61,570 nt of DNA from Acidobacteriota bacterium. GTDB lineage: Bacteria; Acidobacteriota; Terriglobia; Terriglobales; Acidobacteriaceae. Where the stretch lies: assembly GCA_021810625.1 (NCBI GenBank), contig JAJZIJ010000014.1, positions 1-61,570 of the forward strand, read 5' to 3'. Of the stretch, positions 19,986 through 33,873 are shown one piece after another. Below the pieces are notes generated by a model. The model searched no databases. It had not been told where the DNA came from and was given only the letters and a program-made list of their open reading frames with translations. Each line of letters starts with the position of its first letter. Within the stretch, counting starts at the first letter, position 1. Position numbers and translations under genes: made by a program.

Positions 19986-21413
19986 TTACGCAAATACCCA
20001 CAGCTTTGCAGCTTCGGTTAATGCCGCCGACTCCTCCAGAGAACGCGCCTCCGTGTAGGCGCGCACCACCGGTTCCGTTCCCGACAGCCGATAGCAGACC
20101 CAGGAGCCATCGGCTAGCACCAGCTTCAATCCATCGGTGCGGACGATCTGCGTGACCTTGCGTCCACCCAACTCCGTGGGATCGGCCTTCAACTTCTCAG
20201 TGAATGCGGCTTTGGCTGCCGGAGTCAAGCGGAAATTCTCCCGCCGTGGATAGAAGGAACCTACTTGAGCAAAGAGCGCGCGCAGTTGTTCGCCCACGGA
20301 TTTGCCGCGTGTGGCTACCATCTCCGCCACCAGCAGCCCGGCCAGCACCCCATCCTTTTCTGGAACGTGGCCGCGGATGGTCAACCCGGCGCTTTCCTCC
20401 CCGCCAATCGCGATCTTATCCTGGAGAATCAACTCGCCAATGTACTTGAAGCCCACGGGTGTTTCGTAGAGCGGAATCTTCCGCTTCTCCGCCAGCGCGT
20501 TGACCAGATTCGTCGTGGCGACGCTCTTGGCCACGCCATTCGTCCAGCCGCGCGTTTCCACCAGATAGTCAAACAGGAGAGCAAGAATGTAGTTCGGCTG
20601 GATGAAAGTACCGTCGCGATCAACAATGCCGAAGCGGTCGGCATCGCCATCGGTGGCAATGCCAAGGTGCGCGTCTGTCTCTCGCATTTTGGCTCTGCAA
20701 TCGCCGAGCAGTGGATCATCCGGCTCCGGCGCATGGCCGCCAAAGAGCACATCGCGTGTGTCATGCACGCTGACGGCGCGCACGCCATGCTGCTCCAGCA
20801 GTGCTTGCGCGTAGCCGCGCCCCGCGCCCCAAAAGGGATCGACCACAATCCGCAGATCAGCCTTGGCGATGGCCTTCAGATCAACCACCTCCGACAAACG
20901 CTGGAGATACTCCGGCCTCACATCCGTGGTGGGAAAACTTGTGGTGGAAACATTTCCAGCCGACGGCTTGCGATATGCAACGTCCTCGCTGAGAGCGGCA
21001 ATCTCTGCCTCAATCTGATGGGTCACTTCTGGCAACGCGGGCGCGCCATCGGGCGTGGAAAATTTGATGCCGTTATACTCTGGCGGATTGTGCGAGGCGG
21101 TAAAGTTAATCGCGCCGCTGAGCTTTTTCTGGCGCACCGCATACGCAATGGCGGGTGTCGGGGCTGGATCGGAGATCACCTCTGGCGTGATGCCGTGCGC
21201 GGCCAGAATTGCCGCTGCCTCGGCAACGAACATCTCGCCCAGAAAACGCGGATCGCGCCCCACTAAAATGCGATGCGTTCCCGATTGCGGGCTGGGTTGC
21301 TTGGCTACATAGCGCGCAATGCCCGTAACAGCGCGGCGGATATTGCCCAGAGTGAACCCATCCGCAACCACGGCCCGCCAGCCGGAGGTGCCAAACCGTA
21401 TCTCGACTGCCAT
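19986..21413 (-). CDS. Phosphoglucomutase/phosphomannomutase family protein
   Basis: The 475-residue alpha-D-phosphohexomutase has all four active-site motifs: the phosphoserine loop TASHNPPEYNG (Ser107), the metal loop DGDADRFGI, the sugar-recognition loop GGEESAGL and the phosphate loop RLSGTEPVVRAY. It interconverts hexose 1- and 6-phosphates. Specificity (glucose, mannose or glucosamine) cannot be fixed from these motifs. I start at MAVEIRFGTSGWRAVV (21413), the usual family start; 25 further codons upstream look non-conserved. GalU at 57.9 kb would consume glucose 1-phosphate if that is the product. Confidence 0.93.
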   Translation of the reverse strand: MAVEIRFGTSGWRAVVADGFTLGNIRRAVTGIARYVAKQPSPQSGTHRILVGRDPRFLGEMFVAEAAAILAAHGITPEVISDPAPTPAIAYAVRQKKLSGAINFTASHNPPEYNGIKFSTPDGAPALPEVTHQIEAEIAALSEDVAYRKPSAGNVSTTSFPTTDVRPEYLQRLSEVVDLKAIAKADLRIVVDPFWGAGRGYAQALLEQHGVRAVSVHDTRDVLFGGHAPEPDDPLLGDCRAKMRETDAHLGIATDGDADRFGIVDRDGTFIQPNYILALLFDYLVETRGWTNGVAKSVATTNLVNALAEKRKIPLYETPVGFKYIGELILQDKIAIGGEESAGLTIRGHVPEKDGVLAGLLVAEMVATRGKSVGEQLRALFAQVGSFYPRRENFRLTPAAKAAFTEKLKADPTELGGRKVTQIVRTDGLKLVLADGSWVCYRLSGTEPVVRAYTEARSLEESAALTEAAKLWVFA

Positions 21414-21584
21414 TGTTCCTCCCATTTCCCGTTGCTGCATCGCGCCCAAAGAAGATGCTGCCGTTTTCAGAATACCGAATCTCGCCACCGCTGGCTTCAG
21501 CCACTGAGGGACAGCAGCGCGGCTGCATCATACTTCCATACATGGAATGCAAAACCTGCGACGAAGAAGATGCTGCTGCTGTTC

Positions 21585-21613
21585 TTGAATAATGTATATG
21601 TTGGTTATATACT
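21585..21613 (+). promoter_or_regulatory. Sigma-70-like promoter and palindromic operator of brnT
   Basis: TTGAAT (21585-21590) and TATACT (21608-21613) are separated by 17 bases, a near-consensus promoter. An inverted repeat GTATAT-N7-ATATAC (21594-21612) overlaps the -10 box, as expected for an autorepressed toxin-antitoxin operon. The predicted start of transcription, 6-7 bases after the -10, falls on the brnT ATG at 21620, implying a leaderless mRNA. Confidence 0.6.
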
Positions 21614-21619
21614 TTCAAT

Positions 21620-21937
21620 ATGGGCGAATTCGATCCGTTAGAACAATGCACGGGTTTTGATTGGGACGAAGCCAACGCCATCAAAAATTGGGAACGGCAT
21701 CATGTCACGCCAGAAGAGGCGGAAGATATCTTTTTCCAACAACCGTTGGTCGTGCGTGGTGATGTTGGGCATTCCACCAGGGAAAAACGCTACTACGCTT
21801 TGGGAGAGACGAGCCGAGGCAGGCAACTATTTGCTGCTTTCACGATTCGAGGACAAATGATCCGAGTGATCTCTGTGCGCGACATGAATCGGAATGAAAA
21901 GGAGATATATAAGCGCCATGAAAAAGACCCTGCCTAA
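21620..21937 (+). CDS. brnT: BrnT-family toxin (DUF497)
   Basis: The 105-residue protein has the BrnT core FDWDEANAIKNWERHHVTPE, EDIFFQQPLVVRGD, REKRYYALGET, FAAFTIRGQMIRVISVRDM and NEKEIYKRHE. BrnT toxins are RelE-fold ribonucleases that cut mRNA and are held inactive by a ribbon-helix-helix antitoxin. Toxin precedes antitoxin, the usual order for this family, and overlaps it by 20 bases. No Shine-Dalgarno sequence is visible before the ATG, matching the leaderless promoter geometry. The first 12 residues extend beyond the typical family start. Confidence 0.9.
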   Translation: MGEFDPLEQCTGFDWDEANAIKNWERHHVTPEEAEDIFFQQPLVVRGDVGHSTREKRYYALGETSRGRQLFAAFTIRGQMIRVISVRDMNRNEKEIYKRHEKDPA

Positions 21938-22202
21938 GTTTCAGAACGAAGATGCAGAAAGAGAATTCTGGGCCAAGCAGGATTCCACGGAATACCTAAA
22001 CTGGCCCGCAGCCAAACGCCTTCGGCTCACGCGCCTGAAGCCATCCGTGCGCACCATCTCTCTGCGTTTGCCGGTGGCCATGCTGGAGGATTTGAAACTG
22101 CTGGCCAATCAGCGCGACGTGCCCTATCAATCCCTGCTCAAGGTCTTTCTGGCGGAACGTCTGGCACAGGAGCGCCGTCCCCTCCGAGCAATGCACAAGT
22201 AA
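21918..22202 (+). CDS. CopG/BrnA-type antitoxin
   Basis: The 94-residue protein begins MKKTLPKFQNEDAEREFWAK (a CopG_antitoxin signature with DSTEYLNW) and ends in a ribbon-helix-helix half, VRTISLRLPVAMLEDLKLLA, typical of DNA-binding antitoxins. I start at ATG 21918; an ATG eight codons upstream is possible, but its added residues match nothing. It overlaps the toxin gene. It should neutralise BrnT and bind the palindrome at 21594-21612. Confidence 0.86.
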   Translation: MKKTLPKFQNEDAEREFWAKQDSTEYLNWPAAKRLRLTRLKPSVRTISLRLPVAMLEDLKLLANQRDVPYQSLLKVFLAERLAQERRPLRAMHK

Positions 22203-22294
22203 GATTGTTGTGCGCTAATCCGCTCATCCTCGCTGCGGCGAAGAAGGAACTCACGGATTGCGTCGTATGATTGAAACCAATAAAAGCGTGTTTC

Positions 22295-23287
22295 ATGCCC
22301 ACGGATAAACCAGAGTACGATGTCGCGATCTCTTTCCTTGCCAAGGACGAAGCAATCGCGGCGGCAATTCACCGGAAGCTCAGTGAAACGCTGAATGTTT
22401 TCTTCTTCCCGCGAAACCAAAGTGAACTGGCTGGCACCGATGGTATGGTGTCGATGCGAAAGCCATTTCTCGATAAGCCCCATGTCACAGTCGTCTTGTA
22501 TCGAGAACAATGGGGCAAGACCCCGTGGACACAAATTGAAGAGACTGCGATAAAAGAAGCCTGCCTTGCAAGTGGATGGAAACGGCTGTTTTTTATCGCC
22601 TTGGATCGCTCAAGCTCCTTTCCTGATTGGCTTCCCGAATATCACGTCCGGTACAACTGGGAAAGTTTCGGTTTAGATGAGGCCGTGGGTGCGATCAAGG
22701 CGAGAGCGTTAGAGAACGGTGCCCAGCAGGAGTTCCTTACCCCGCTGAAACGAGCCGAGACGCTCAGGGCAGATGAACTATATCGGAGAGACAAGTCGAA
22801 TATGAACTCCCAAGAAGGGATTGCAGCCATACTCGATAAGGTTTCTGAATTGTTTGAGGAAATCGAAAAGCACTGCAAAGAAGTCAACGCCCAAGGGCAT
22901 CTGCAGATCAGACACTCCAAGGACTTAAAAAAAGGTACCACCAATCAAAGCTGTATCCTAACGGACAATCGTGTGGGCATGATTGTTACATGGCGTCAGC
23001 AATACTCCAATTTGTTGGATCACAGCGGGCTTTTCGTACAAGAGTATATCGGTGGCCTCATCCTCCATCATGAAACAAGTAGCCTCATGTACTTTGATCA
23101 GCCCCAACTACTCCATGAAACGAACTACGACCCTGAGCTTTCTCTTGGGCGCGAGTATGGATGGAAACAAGAAAAATCGACCGAGTTCATTTCTTCCATT
23201 GCACTTGCACAAAAATGCGTTATCCAGTTCATGGATTTGGTCGATCGTTATGCCAACGGAAAGATTAGGAATCGCAATTCCCTTTAA
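22295..23287 (+). CDS. TIR-domain protein with unrecognised C-terminal domain
   Basis: The 330-residue soluble protein has an N-terminal TIR fold (about 8-140). Visible elements are YDVAISFLAKDE (strand A and box 1-like), LNVFFFPRN (strand B), VTVVLYREQWGKTPWTQIEE and KRLFFIALD. The Trp-xxx-Glu element W78-E82 matches the position of the NADase glutamate in catalytic TIR domains. A predicted coiled segment (about 172-200) joins a 130-residue C-terminal region that I cannot assign (RVGMIVTWRQQYSN, LFVQEYIGGLILHHE). The gene is AT-richer than its neighbours and sits between two toxin-antitoxin pairs. TIR NADases act in anti-phage abortive infection; that role is inferred here. Confidence 0.82.
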   Translation: MPTDKPEYDVAISFLAKDEAIAAAIHRKLSETLNVFFFPRNQSELAGTDGMVSMRKPFLDKPHVTVVLYREQWGKTPWTQIEETAIKEACLASGWKRLFFIALDRSSSFPDWLPEYHVRYNWESFGLDEAVGAIKARALENGAQQEFLTPLKRAETLRADELYRRDKSNMNSQEGIAAILDKVSELFEEIEKHCKEVNAQGHLQIRHSKDLKKGTTNQSCILTDNRVGMIVTWRQQYSNLLDHSGLFVQEYIGGLILHHETSSLMYFDQPQLLHETNYDPELSLGREYGWKQEKSTEFISSIALAQKCVIQFMDLVDRYANGKIRNRNSL

Positions 23288-23312
23288 CAGTGTGCCGGGC
23301 CTCAGCGTTGAC

Positions 23313-23597
23313 TTATGCGGCGGCGCGCGTGGGAAGGGGCTTTACCTTGGCGCGTTTCTTTTGCGAGGCCTCCCAGAGATCGCGCTGCATCTGAAGCCGC
23401 AGCCAGAAATCCGCATCCGTGTGGAATGCCTCCGCCAGACGTAGAGCCATGTCCGCAGAGACTCCCGCTCTGCCGTTTAGAACCCGCGAGAGCGTGGGCC
23501 GGGTCACTCCCAGGTGGCGGGCCACCTCTGTAACGGATCGGCCTGCAAGATAGTTGGCGAGAATCTTTCCCGGATGAGCGGGATTGTGCATGCGCAT
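23313..23597 (-). CDS. higA: HigA-family antitoxin
   Basis: The 94-residue protein opens MRMHNPAHPGKILANYL and has the XRE-type helix-turn-helix SVTEVARHLGVTRPTLSRVL, then NGRAGVSADMALRLAEAF and WLRLQMQRDLWEA, all typical of HigA/VapI antitoxins. A second ATG two codons in is also possible. It follows higB by 15 bases, the toxin-first order normal for this family. It should bind and silence HigB and repress the operon. It converges on the TIR gene with a 25-base gap. Confidence 0.93.
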   Translation of the reverse strand: MRMHNPAHPGKILANYLAGRSVTEVARHLGVTRPTLSRVLNGRAGVSADMALRLAEAFHTDADFWLRLQMQRDLWEASQKKRAKVKPLPTRAAA

Positions 23598-23612
23598 ACT
23601 GGAACTCCTTTC

Positions 23613-23891
23613 TTAGTGGTAATCCTGATAGTTGACAAGGACGGCATCCTCACCCATAAACGTAAACGTGAGCCGCCAATTTCCATTGACGCTGACCGCA
23701 AAATGCCCTGCAAGAGAACCTGCCAGCGCGTGGTATTGCCAGCCGGGGATGTTCATCTGCTCTGGCCGGGTGGCAATGTTCAAAACCGTCAGTTGCTCGT
23801 TGAGCTTGGTGGCATGGCTGGGCTGAATGCCGGACTTTGAGCCGGTACGAAAGAATTTTTCTATGCCCTTGTGCCGGAAGCTCCGAATCAT
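23613..23891 (-). CDS. higB: HigB-family toxin (RelE-like mRNA interferase)
   Basis: The 92-residue protein begins MIRSFRHKGIEKFFRTGSKS and contains RPEQMNIPGWQYHALAGSLA, HFAVSVNGNWRLTFTF and EDAVLVNYQDYH, the classic HigB layout ending in a DYH motif. It is a ribosome-dependent mRNA endonuclease. The ATG at 23891 matches the family start; the frame remains open upstream but that part is not conserved. It is the first gene of the higBA operon on the minus strand. Confidence 0.93.
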   Translation of the reverse strand: MIRSFRHKGIEKFFRTGSKSGIQPSHATKLNEQLTVLNIATRPEQMNIPGWQYHALAGSLAGHFAVSVNGNWRLTFTFMGEDAVLVNYQDYH

Positions 23892-24044
23892 ACTGCTGCA
23901 TATTGTACTGCGTAACGCTACGGCGCACATGTAAAAATTCAAACAGTGTATCCTTGACATTCCATTTGCTCCCAGATACGCTCGGCGACAATTGCGCTCG
24001 ATAATTGTTGCGCAGACATTTCCGGCAGAGGCATCGCATCCAAA

Positions 24045-25268
24045 GTGACAGACAACCCCACAGATACGGAGCAGGCAGCCGACGCGGCAGAGGCATCCAC
24101 CGCGCCGCAGGCGATACAGGAGCCGCAGATCACGCAGGCCGAGCGGCTGGCATGGCTGGCGCTGGCGCTGACTCCCGGATTGGGGCAGCGAAGAATTGCG
24201 CGCGCCGTCGAAAAGGTCGGCAGCGCCGAGCGCATCTTTACTCTGCCGCTCACCGAACTCGAAGCGCTGAACATTTCGGCAGCCTCCGCGCAGAGCCTCT
24301 TCCACGGCGCGTCGATGGCCGAGGCGGAAAAGGAGTGGAAGCTGGTCACGGAAAGCGGCGGCAGCTTGATTACGCCCTCCGATGCCGCGTACCCGGAGCG
24401 TCTGCGCGAGATTTACGATCCGCCCGTGGTGCTGTGGCTGCGCGGCGACGCATCCTTATTGGCGCGACCGGGCATTGCCATCGTCGGCACCCGCCAGCCG
24501 ACAACCTACGGGGCGGGCATGGCGCAGATGCTGGCACGCGATCTGGCCGCGCATGGATTGGTGATTCTGAGCGGCATGGCTCGCGGCGTGGACACAGCAG
24601 CGCATCGCGGCGCACTGGAAGCCAACGGCAAAACGGTCGCCGTCTGGGGCACGGGCATCGACGTCATTTATCCCAAGGAGAACAAGCGGCTGGCGGAGCA
24701 AATTCTGGAATCCGGGGGGACGATCCTGAGCGAGTACCCGATGGGAACCTTTCCCGCGCCGCAGAATTTCCCCATCCGCAACCGCATTTTGAGCGGGATG
24801 AGCGTGGGCGTACTTGTGATTGAGGCGGGCGAAAATAGCGGAACGCGCATTACAGCCCGCTGCGCGCTGGAACAAAATCGCGAGGTCTTCGCTGTACCCG
24901 GCAACGTGACTTCCAAAAACGCCTGGGGGCCAAACACGTTGATTAAGCAGGGCGCAAAACTGGTGGCCACCTGGGAGGATGTCTGGGAGGAACTGCCCAC
25001 GCAAATTCGGCTGGAGGTTGAGGAGCGAATGGGGAGTGCATCCCCCGACGACGCTACCGCATCCTTATTCAGCGAGACGGATTTGCCAGAGGAGCAAAAG
25101 CTGGTCTTTGCGCTGATGCGACCCGACGAGGCGCTCCAGATGGATGAAATTGTTGAGCGATTGGAGGGCAAAGTGAGTTCTTCTGAGATATTTGCGGCTA
25201 TCTTTGAGTTGGAACTCTCTGGAAAAATCCGCGCTCTGCCCGGAAAAAACTATGTGAAAACGTTTTAG
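24045..25268 (+). CDS. dprA: DNA-processing protein DprA
   Basis: The 407-residue protein shows a SAM-like N-terminal helical domain (about 30-100), then the DprA Rossmann core: IAIVGTRQPTTYGAGMAQML, LSGMARGVDTAAHRGALE, GTGIDVIYPKENKRLAE and LVIEAGENSGTRITA. A C-terminal winged helix (about 340-405) follows. DprA protects incoming single-stranded DNA and loads RecA in natural transformation. The start is a GTG at 24045 with a weak ribosome site, and the first 28 residues are Ala/Thr-rich and unlikely to be structured. It sits just outside the toxin-antitoxin/TIR island. Confidence 0.94.
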   Translation: MTDNPTDTEQAADAAEASTAPQAIQEPQITQAERLAWLALALTPGLGQRRIARAVEKVGSAERIFTLPLTELEALNISAASAQSLFHGASMAEAEKEWKLVTESGGSLITPSDAAYPERLREIYDPPVVLWLRGDASLLARPGIAIVGTRQPTTYGAGMAQMLARDLAAHGLVILSGMARGVDTAAHRGALEANGKTVAVWGTGIDVIYPKENKRLAEQILESGGTILSEYPMGTFPAPQNFPIRNRILSGMSVGVLVIEAGENSGTRITARCALEQNREVFAVPGNVTSKNAWGPNTLIKQGAKLVATWEDVWEELPTQIRLEVEERMGSASPDDATASLFSETDLPEEQKLVFALMRPDEALQMDEIVERLEGKVSSSEIFAAIFELELSGKIRALPGKNYVKTF

Positions 25269-32005: not shown

Positions 32006-32623
32006 TTATTCCTTGCTTATCCCCAACATGGCTTCACAAAACACTTGAAAGCTCCGTGAATTGTTATCTGTCACTTTCATATGCTTGGCAATTTCCGATG
32101 CCGCCTCAATCTTCCGCAGACCGCTTTCAAAATATCCTGCCTTCTTTGCAACTCGTTCAAATGCCTCCCATGTACCACCAACGATCTCGTCGGGAATGCG
32201 ATAAGCTGCTTTAGATGCGATTGCTCTTGGCATCTTTGGGTATGCCACCCGTACAGCATTCCAGTCACCGAAATACCAAGATTCAAGCTCTTCGACTGCA
32301 ATACGATTTATCACCTTGTAATCTCCCTTTCCCTTGGATGCCCGCGTACGAAGTCCAGAATCATGAGCAAATTTTTCTAATTTGTGTTTGAGTGTAATGC
32401 AGTCCTCATTATCTCGATCAATGAGTATGACAATTCGCCAGTTGTCTGGAAGATATCTGGAATATCCGCGAAGCCTTGAAGGCAATTTTAAGAGCAGGTC
32501 TTTTTTGCCCTGGTGTGTGTAAATTGCGAAGGTTGTCTGTTTTAATAAACGGGGCAATAACTGTCGCAGGGCTGCTTCCATTGAGGGTTCCTCAACAAGC
32601 ACCTCAATATGTTCAACGCTCAT
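32006..32623 (-). CDS. DUF4276 TOPRIM-like protein, partner of ABC/AAA_21 ATPase
   Basis: The 205-residue protein starts [20 protein letters not shown] and continues to [15 protein letters not shown]. The acidic pair E11/E12 after a hydrophobic strand and the D69-R70-D71 motif are the two metal-binding signatures of TOPRIM nuclease/topoisomerase folds. Downstream, [12 protein letters not shown] (E111-W116) is a further DUF4276 block. Its ATG overlaps the ATPase stop by four bases (ATGA), so the two are made together. By analogy with OLD and PARIS systems, I infer that the ATPase senses and this protein is the effector. Base composition is low in G+C compared with acnA (hand count in one 60-base line: 24 versus 44). 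Confidence 0.82.
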
Positions 32624-33873
32624 TTGGATGCGCCTCTCCTTGATGGAGCACCTGAATTGACCAATGGATCTCCCATGCCAAAGTGTCCTTCTGACCATAG
32701 CTGCCCCAGAGTCGCACCTTCTTCAATGAAGTCCGAGATTCCAGATATGTCCGAAGCGCTCTCGACATGTGTAAAACCATCCTCATCTCGATATAAAACA
32801 CGAACTTCCTGCGGCTTCATGGCATTTAAGAAGAAAGGAGAATGTGTTGTAACCAGCAGTTGCGAATGTTCACTGGCCTTTCGACATTCCTCGCCAAGTC
32901 TGGGCAATAACCGAGTGTGGAGAAAATTTTCTGGCTCTTCAATACCAATAAATGGTGGCGCTTCTGGATCGTACAGAACCAATAAGTACGCCAGCATTTT
33001 GAGTGTTCCGTCGGAAGCAAACCGGGATAGAATTGGCCTTTCAAAAGGAGCATCCTTAATCTGGAGAAGTAAGTGTCCATCTGGCATTGCCTCCGCCAGA
33101 ACACTCTCTAATCGCGGAACCATACCACCTAGCTTTTTGAAGATGCTATCAAGTCGGGCGGGGTGTCTTTCTTTGAAATACTGAACAACATTAGGTAAGT
33201 TGTCTCCAGTCTTGCTGAGACGCTCTTGAGGCCCCGCTTCAGGACGACTACGCGTATCGTCAATTGCAAGATAGGAAACATACCAGTCCGTAATAAATTC
33301 CCTCAAAGCTGCCACACGCGGATGTTCAGCAAATTGGCCCAGAGTGTTGACAGCGATTAAATCAGGAGACCGCAAGGGCGTTTGTAATCTCTTGTCCTTT
33401 TCGTCGGGCATATCACCGCTAACAGCACTACCTTGTCCGTCGCGATAGTCGAGGAAGTGGAATGGTCGCCCCCTGCTTCCTCGTTTCCATTGAAGCCACT
33501 CATTCTTTACTACAGGTCCCTTATCAGTTTCATCAATTGCCAGGTGATAGGTAATCAATGGGAGGTCGGAACGCTCGCGATACTTGAGCTCGATAACAAC
33601 CGGGCCATCTTGCCCTCGGGTTTTGATTTCCTTTGCTCGCCCGCGACGATCCCAAGCGTATCTTAGACCATGCTGAAAGCACTCTGATAAAAAATTGAAT
33701 ACGTCAAACATGGTTGACTTACCGCTGCCGTTTGGACCGAGAAGCACTGTAAGCGGTGTGAGGTCGCGGAGTTCAACAGATTTGAGTGCGCGATAATTTT
33801 CCACCCGCAAATAGGAAATTCTGGCTCTCTCTCGAGGCATTTCTTCCTTACTTTTCATAGTCTTGTTGACCAC
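32620..33873 (-). CDS. ABC/AAA_21-type ATPase of a putative two-gene defence module
   Basis: The 417-residue ATPase has Walker [10 protein letters not shown] (46-54), an ABC-signature-like SDGTLKM (287-293), Walker B FIGIEEPE (E312/E313) and H-loop H344 in TTHSPFFL. It also starts with the SMC/RecF-type [17 protein letters not shown]. The short insert between Walker A and the signature means an OLD-like head without a long coiled coil. The start is a GTG with AAAGGAG 6 bases upstream. Its C-terminus carries no nuclease, and the separate TOPRIM gene that overlaps its stop supplies one. It is a plausible anti-phage sensor ATPase. Role inferred, architecture seen. Confidence 0.86.

Follow-up and report, generated by a model that had tools for sequence, protein, structure and literature searches.

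A solitary gene for a TIR-domain protein lies at positions 22295–23287 on the plus strand of the window, the stretch of 61,570 nucleotides of Acidobacteriota DNA that we analyzed. The frame is open from the ATG at 22295 to the stop at 23287 and encodes 330 amino acids; full-length relatives exist. An alternative in-frame TTG start at 22271 would yield a protein of 338 amino acids. A 13-codon frame at 22267–22308 overlaps the TIR start in another reading frame and has, by eye, a GAAGGA stretch ahead of it. It is possibly a leader, or else a chance occurrence.

The TIR gene is enclosed by two toxin–antitoxin pairs. Upstream, on the plus strand, are a BrnT-type toxin gene (21620–21937; PF04365, E 3.6e-23) and a BrnA-type antitoxin gene (21894–22202; PF12441, E 1.2e-29), which ends 92 nt before the TIR start. 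Downstream, a HigA-type antitoxin gene (23313–23597; TIGR02607, E 9.8e-28) runs convergently on the minus strand, as does a HigB-type toxin gene (23613–23891; PF05015, E 1e-19 on 23616–23900, with the start at 23891 chosen by eye). The whole block sits between pgm and dprA-topA. Among these immediate neighbours (the two toxin–antitoxin pairs, pgm and dprA) there is no thsA, Argonaute or cyclase gene, and an earlier sequence-only reading was thus right to report that no thsA or cyclase is adjacent.

The GC content of the TIR gene is 48.4%, compared to 57.7% for the window. Low GC is common to the TIR gene and BrnT (49.5%) but not to HigA (62.8%). Hence, the block from BrnT to HigA is not uniform in composition.

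In a sister species (G001), the segment 21466–23952 is replaced by AbiLi/AbiLii, according to blastn breakpoints and PADLOC. The flanks of G001 (pgm and dprA) are 88% and 90% identical in DNA to those of the window, up to 21465 and from 23953 onward, and the exchange site itself (L063 4994–7096) carries AbiLi (E 6.4e-84) and AbiLii (E 5.5e-25). The TIR gene is placed in exchangeable DNA, as seen in this one pair of genomes, G001 being the only genome of the same genus in the rows shown. In seven other relatives, 10-kb segments with dprA contain no BrnT, BrnA, TIR, HigA or HigB at E 1e-5. Because pgm is absent from these segments, they are uninformative about the same site.

Near the left boundary of the exchange site, a 13-nt direct repeat occurs at 21449–21461 and 21564–21576, which may be chance. 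Farther along the window, a pair of low-GC3 genes on the minus strand (32006–33873) encodes an AAA_21 ATPase and a DUF4276 protein. This pair looks like a second defence-type module of the window.

A sigma70-like site before BrnT (21585–21613) is the only one found on the plus strand in 21400–24100, and the TIR gene may share the transcription of the upstream BrnT/BrnA pair. One could go further and count the TIR gene as part of the toxin–antitoxin cluster: BrnA would also repress the TIR gene, and a stand-alone TIR toxin would be released upon BrnA loss. The promoter-like site fits this explanation, and so does the order of the genes, with BrnT, BrnA and TIR co-directional across a gap of only 92 nt and HigB/HigA on the other side. 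However, the number of promoter-like sites is near chance (4 vs 2.0 expected, sd 1.4), and BrnT/BrnA were not noticed, by eye, beside the other family members that we inspected. We therefore consider the toxin–antitoxin explanation quite improbable.

The N-terminal part of the protein, residues 8–140 (22316–22714, plus strand), is a TIR domain. Pfam TIR_2 (PF13676) matches residues 10–105 with an E-value of 2.6e-4 and 21.9 bits, which does not reach the curated cut-off of 28; a relative from a viral contig (L009) scores 28.3 bits. Since the sequence signal is modest, the TIR identity is settled by the fold. Residues 4–148 of the model superpose on solved TIR domains, including those of plants, with Z-scores of about 11–12. 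Among these are SPARTA 8qlp (Z 12.3, rmsd 3.4, 151 residues aligned), PdTIR 3h16 (Z 12.1) and AbTir 7uxu (Z 11.9). The sequence-only reading had seen TIR elements in residues 8–140, and the fold matches at Z ~12 bear this out.

That reading had also named W78 and E82, and had proposed an alignment of homologues as a check on E82. Both residues are found at these positions (22526–22528 and 22538–22540, plus strand), where they form a WxxxE motif, which we take to be the catalytic motif of TIR NADases. Our alignment of TIR domains has 14 rows including the window protein, 13 of them distinct because two phage rows (L010 and L011) have the same sequence. E82, the putative catalytic glutamate, is conserved in all 14 rows (13 distinct), and it is kept in nine of nine TIR proteins that share the C-terminal domain (window protein included). 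W78 is found in 13 of the 14 rows and in eight of the same nine proteins; it is an F in L034. An aromatic residue that closes the first TIR strand, F14 (22334–22336, plus strand), is invariant as well (14/14 rows, 13 distinct).

These residues bear on whether the TIR domain is active at all. A catalytically dead TIR that serves as a binding or scaffold domain would agree with the modest resemblance to the curated Pfam model (21.9 bits where 28 are required) and with the loss of W78 in L034. Yet E82 and F14 do not vary in any of the 14 rows, and a dead TIR seems to us highly improbable.

The same residues introduce the main rival explanation. According to the available text of PMC12578639, ThsB2 has a Phe across from its putative catalytic Glu, and this Phe/Glu pair is needed for function. 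F14 and E82 resemble the pair, F6 and E81 of ThsB2, and are probably its equivalent. Since gcADPR is the product of ThsB proteins, which act as TIR sensors (same source, same part), the window protein could be a ThsB-like signal maker whose messenger, of the cyclic ADP-ribose type, would address an effector from another locus of the genome. However, a ThsA-type gene is absent among the immediate neighbours, and no partner recurs in the loci that we inspected by eye. A STALD search gave no match in the window's own genome and equally none in 14 control genomes. We regard a ThsB-like signal maker as unlikely.

The TIR domain is followed by a helical linker or stalk, residues ~150–199 (22742–22891, plus strand), placed with moderate confidence from the full-length model. 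This model has linker helices at 150–169 and 173–197, followed by strands and a final helix. With a pLDDT of 68.8 and a pTM of 0.47, it is weak overall, so that the geometry of the stalk is only predicted.

The last part of the protein is a novel globular domain, residues ~200–325 (22892–23269, plus strand), supported by a model of its own and by a profile match on a GGDEF protein (below). A separate model of residues 168–330, built from an alignment of ten rows, reaches a pLDDT of 89.6 and a pTM of 0.86. Together with the preceding helix, the predicted architecture is alpha-beta6-alpha: a helix, six strands and a helix.

Profile libraries do not recognize this domain. Pfam has no significant match to residues 146–330 (best E 0.12), PHROGs has no match to residues 142–330, and the whole protein has no hit with E<=1 in NCBIfam or PADLOC. 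The relatives behave similarly. PADLOC is silent for five TIR relatives (L003, L006, L007, L009, L018), NCBIfam gives only weak matches to the same five (best E 0.026), and so does PHROGs for the C-terminal parts of four relatives (best E 0.032). Profile searches of PDB sequences yield weak coiled-coil and chance matches (best E 0.41 and 0.13). A Foldseek search of the C-terminal domain against the PDB and viral models finds nothing below E 0.001. Residues 200–330 were called unassigned by the sequence-only reading, and they remain so in Pfam, NCBIfam, PHROGs and PADLOC, without a significant match; the fold prediction and structural search of the C-terminal part that it had suggested list no well-known TIR-linked domain among their matches.

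Structural comparison does produce similar shapes. The top match is CyaY (4jpd; Z 9.2, rmsd 3.3, 103/109 residues aligned), and there are others to chain 7 of 2fug, presumably Nqo15 (Z 8.6, 112/127 residues), and to yeast frataxin (Z 7.8, 111/123 residues). The choline transporter BetT is also among the structural rows. Frataxin/CyaY and Nqo15 likewise consist of a helix, an antiparallel sheet and a helix, which implies no function. Because the best background Z is usually 7–8 and Foldseek has no match below E 0.001, the likeness is one of shape only. The sequence agrees: the frataxin family of Pfam does not come up at E<=1, and the profile search of PDB sequences finds no frataxin chain. A PH-like fold, our first guess from the strand count, was set aside, as no PH-titled row is among the structural matches.

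The same C-terminal domain occurs on a protein of a different kind. L024 is a GGDEF protein of 449 amino acids from Acidobacteriota (L024 1495–2844, minus strand) whose match to the family profile is confined to the C-terminal part (E 5.5e-23). Its GGDEF domain (residues 128–267, E 1.9e-33) is followed by the shared domain. A profile built from nine TIR members, with L024 left out, recovers L024 with a best-domain E of 6.5e-25, and still does so at 1.1e-14 when the helices are removed and the beta part is used alone. Among 1488 frames (many overlapping) from 71 loci, there is no match up to E 10 beyond the TIR family and L024. Being present on both TIR proteins and a GGDEF protein, the C-terminal domain is a portable module. 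The GGDEF architecture is known from a single example, L024.

We would tentatively, and with more doubt than conviction, propose an undescribed portable infection sensor: mounted on a GGDEF cyclase, it would turn its trigger into a cyclic-nucleotide signal, and mounted on a TIR NADase, it would turn the same trigger into NAD+ loss. Alternatively, the protein could be a non-immune regulator that adjusts NAD or cyclic-nucleotide levels in response to a metabolite recognized by the C-terminal domain. GGDEF domains usually serve ordinary signalling, so the presence of the domain on L024 speaks for a regulator, as do frataxin and the choline transporter BetT among the structural rows. On the other hand, the family is rare and scattered, its members are found at exchangeable or viral locations, and the GGDEF carrier itself adjoins a PIN-TPR-GreABC gene. 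A non-immune regulator is in our view very unlikely.

Besides the window protein, the TIR domain and the C-terminal domain are combined in L002, L003/L005, L006, L007, L018, L036, L034 and L009. L002 (57%) comes from the same taxonomic family as the window genome, and L003/L005, which are one short contig, from a different family of Acidobacteriota. L006 is an Acidobacteriota member too, L007, L018 and L036 are assigned to Bacteroidota, and L009 comes from IMG/VR. L034 is from an Acidobacteriota genome that is 68% complete. There, at ~900–2028, a TIR frame of 310 codons directly follows an in-frame TAG near the gene start. Close upstream of this gene is, by eye, a tRNA-Phe-like sequence, which contains two N bases and is not called by ARAGORN.

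The family is rare and scattered. All frequencies given here count the own or centre genome. It occurs in two of 200 relatives (its own genome and one other) and, at E<=0.001, in three of 297 genomes of the phylum, two of them at full length. The family profile matches 9/396 genomes: two at full length, one in the C-terminal part only and six in the TIR part only. In the phylum of G479, five of 296 genomes match, two at full length. The C-terminal profile finds 3/396, 2/149, 2/98 and 1/133 genomes, the last being the centre itself.

A tree of 13 rows gives full support to the split between the ten TIRs of the family and three ordinary ones. The window protein clusters with L002, L009 and L003 (99/98), and the deeper order is mostly not resolved; the mixing of Acidobacteriota and Bacteroidota depends on one fork (support 80/84).

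A few relatives lie on viral contigs. Scans of IMG/VR viral contigs return the same three loci twice (L009, L010, L011). The scans with the C-terminal domain of L024 and with L003, L036 and L018 find no relatives among viral contigs. Searching plasmids and phages by tblastn with the window protein and L009 gives no match; nor do the C-terminal domains of L024 and L009 against plasmids, and none of 3820 plasmid records covers 80% of L024. TIR domains are described as relatively infrequent in viral genomes in the part of PMC9503650 available to us.

Two side observations concern incomplete copies. The viral contigs L010 (3274–3795) and L011 (1497–2018) encode a family TIR of 173 amino acids without the C-terminal domain. 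Terminase and portal genes lie near the TIR gene of L010, and the frames of L011 look the same; the short TIR might serve as a decoy or protect against superinfection. In another Acidobacteria genome (L008 6001–6126), 42 residues are 76% identical to the N-terminus of the window protein and no further match follows, which points to gene decay.

We read the neighbourhoods in five of the nine profile-matched genomes (window, L003, L024, L004, L026; L027–L030 were left out) and in three of the five in the G479 phylum (L007, L018, L020; L019 and L021 were left out). By eye, neighbours vary among the inspected loci, and no partner gene recurs. Genes for a tyrosine integrase, RiboL-PSP HEPN, HSDR_N, HATPase and HD-CE proteins are near L018/L040. 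L003 adjoins a DUF4238-like gene (E 4.3e-6, 26.8 bits, cut-off 27), and the DUF4238 domain is reported as protective against T7 in the accessible portion of PMC9122126. The viral contig of L009 also has a RecT-like gene. L002 adjoins an impB/mucB-type polymerase gene, and L006 lies among what by eye are apparent housekeeping genes. There is no recognizable gene beside the TIR of L007, and the neighbour gene of L036 has no Pfam match.

Taken together, we think that the TIR protein probably acts alone, as a defence factor of the abortive-infection type encoded by a solitary gene. This reading is supported by the TIR fold, the conservation of E82, the lack of an adjacent partner and the exchangeable location. 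It is also supported by the defence or mobile company elsewhere (L040, L003, L009, L010/L011), and by rarity, low GC and modularity. We count against it the surroundings of L002, L006, L007 and L036, the silence of PADLOC, the single GGDEF example, the single pair of sister genomes, the uneven composition of the block, the modestly supported fork that mixes the phyla and the weak full-length model.

We infer NADase activity, a defence role, a trigger, a change of oligomer and cell arrest. In such a defence factor, the C-terminal domain would be the input of a switch, the helical stalk the coupling and the TIR domain the output. The C-terminal domain and the stalk would hold the protein inactive. 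An infection-derived ligand would then bind the C-terminal domain, and the TIR domains would be brought together. Once assembled, the TIRs would use up NAD+, and the infected cell would be arrested.

Capsid and portal are given as phage triggers of bacterial TIR proteins (available parts of PMC12578639 and PMC13174449), and how these proteins sense phages is only now being elucidated. With a C-terminal domain that is unrelated and confidently folded, this compact one-gene TIR would be another tractable sensor, and the GGDEF fusion offers an independent handle on the function of this domain. As the PADLOC version that we searched has no match, scans that rely on PADLOC would overlook the family.

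Several known systems use TIR domains. SPARTA needs a short Argonaute. Its TIR-APAZ subunit also has an N-terminal TIR in a longer protein, with the same TIR fold, but there is no short Argonaute among the immediate neighbours of the window gene. SPARTA 8spo was aligned along residues 6–323 with an rmsd of 18.9, too high for a genuine match of the C-terminal part, and no SPARTA chain is among the 50 structural rows for the C-terminal domain. APAZ is listed neither in these rows nor in those of Foldseek. CBASS and Pycsar differ as well: the window protein has no SAVED, STING or cNMP-binding Pfam match (E<=1), and no cyclase is adjacent. In Thoeris, the TIR sensor ThsB with its pair of Phe and catalytic Glu works with ThsA (PMC12578639, in the available text), whereas no thsA is adjacent here.

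Closer in build are defence proteins made from a single gene. P4-like satellites encode a single-gene TIR-STAND-TPR defence protein (PMC9122126, as far as its accessible text goes). The window protein would likewise be a single-gene TIR defence, but it has no match to a STAND NTPase or TPR. Swarozyc KpSwz, as presented in the available part of PMC13174449, is one protein with a TIR-like domain, a helical stalk and a C-terminal domain that binds the phage portal, after which the TIR-like domain consumes NAD+. Swarozyc is, in the same part, patchily distributed and partly found in defence islands. The window protein is predicted to resemble it in having a TIR, a helical linker (moderate confidence) and a C-terminal domain in one protein. 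The two differ in both end domains, to the extent that the available description of KpSwz covers them. KpSwz has DUF4062 (a TIR-like NADase), whereas the window protein lacks a DUF4062 match and gives TIR_2 only in Pfam at E<=1; the auxiliary domain of KpSwz is HTH/winged, while that of the window protein is modelled as alpha-beta6-alpha.

The sequence-only reading had presented a single-protein TIR with its own sensor as a new build. This claim to novelty fails because one-protein TIR defence has already been described, as the available texts on TIR-STAND-TPR (PMC9122126) and Swarozyc (PMC13174449) make clear. Among the matches listed in a literature search, mostly outside subscription journals, none describes the combination of a TIR with this C-terminal domain, and neither the domain nor its occurrence on both TIR and GGDEF proteins turned up there or in the libraries that we searched. 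The novelty lies in this domain, which the two kinds of protein share. Our best reading, by analogy, is that the window protein would work like Swarozyc or the TIR-STAND proteins, with a different sensor.
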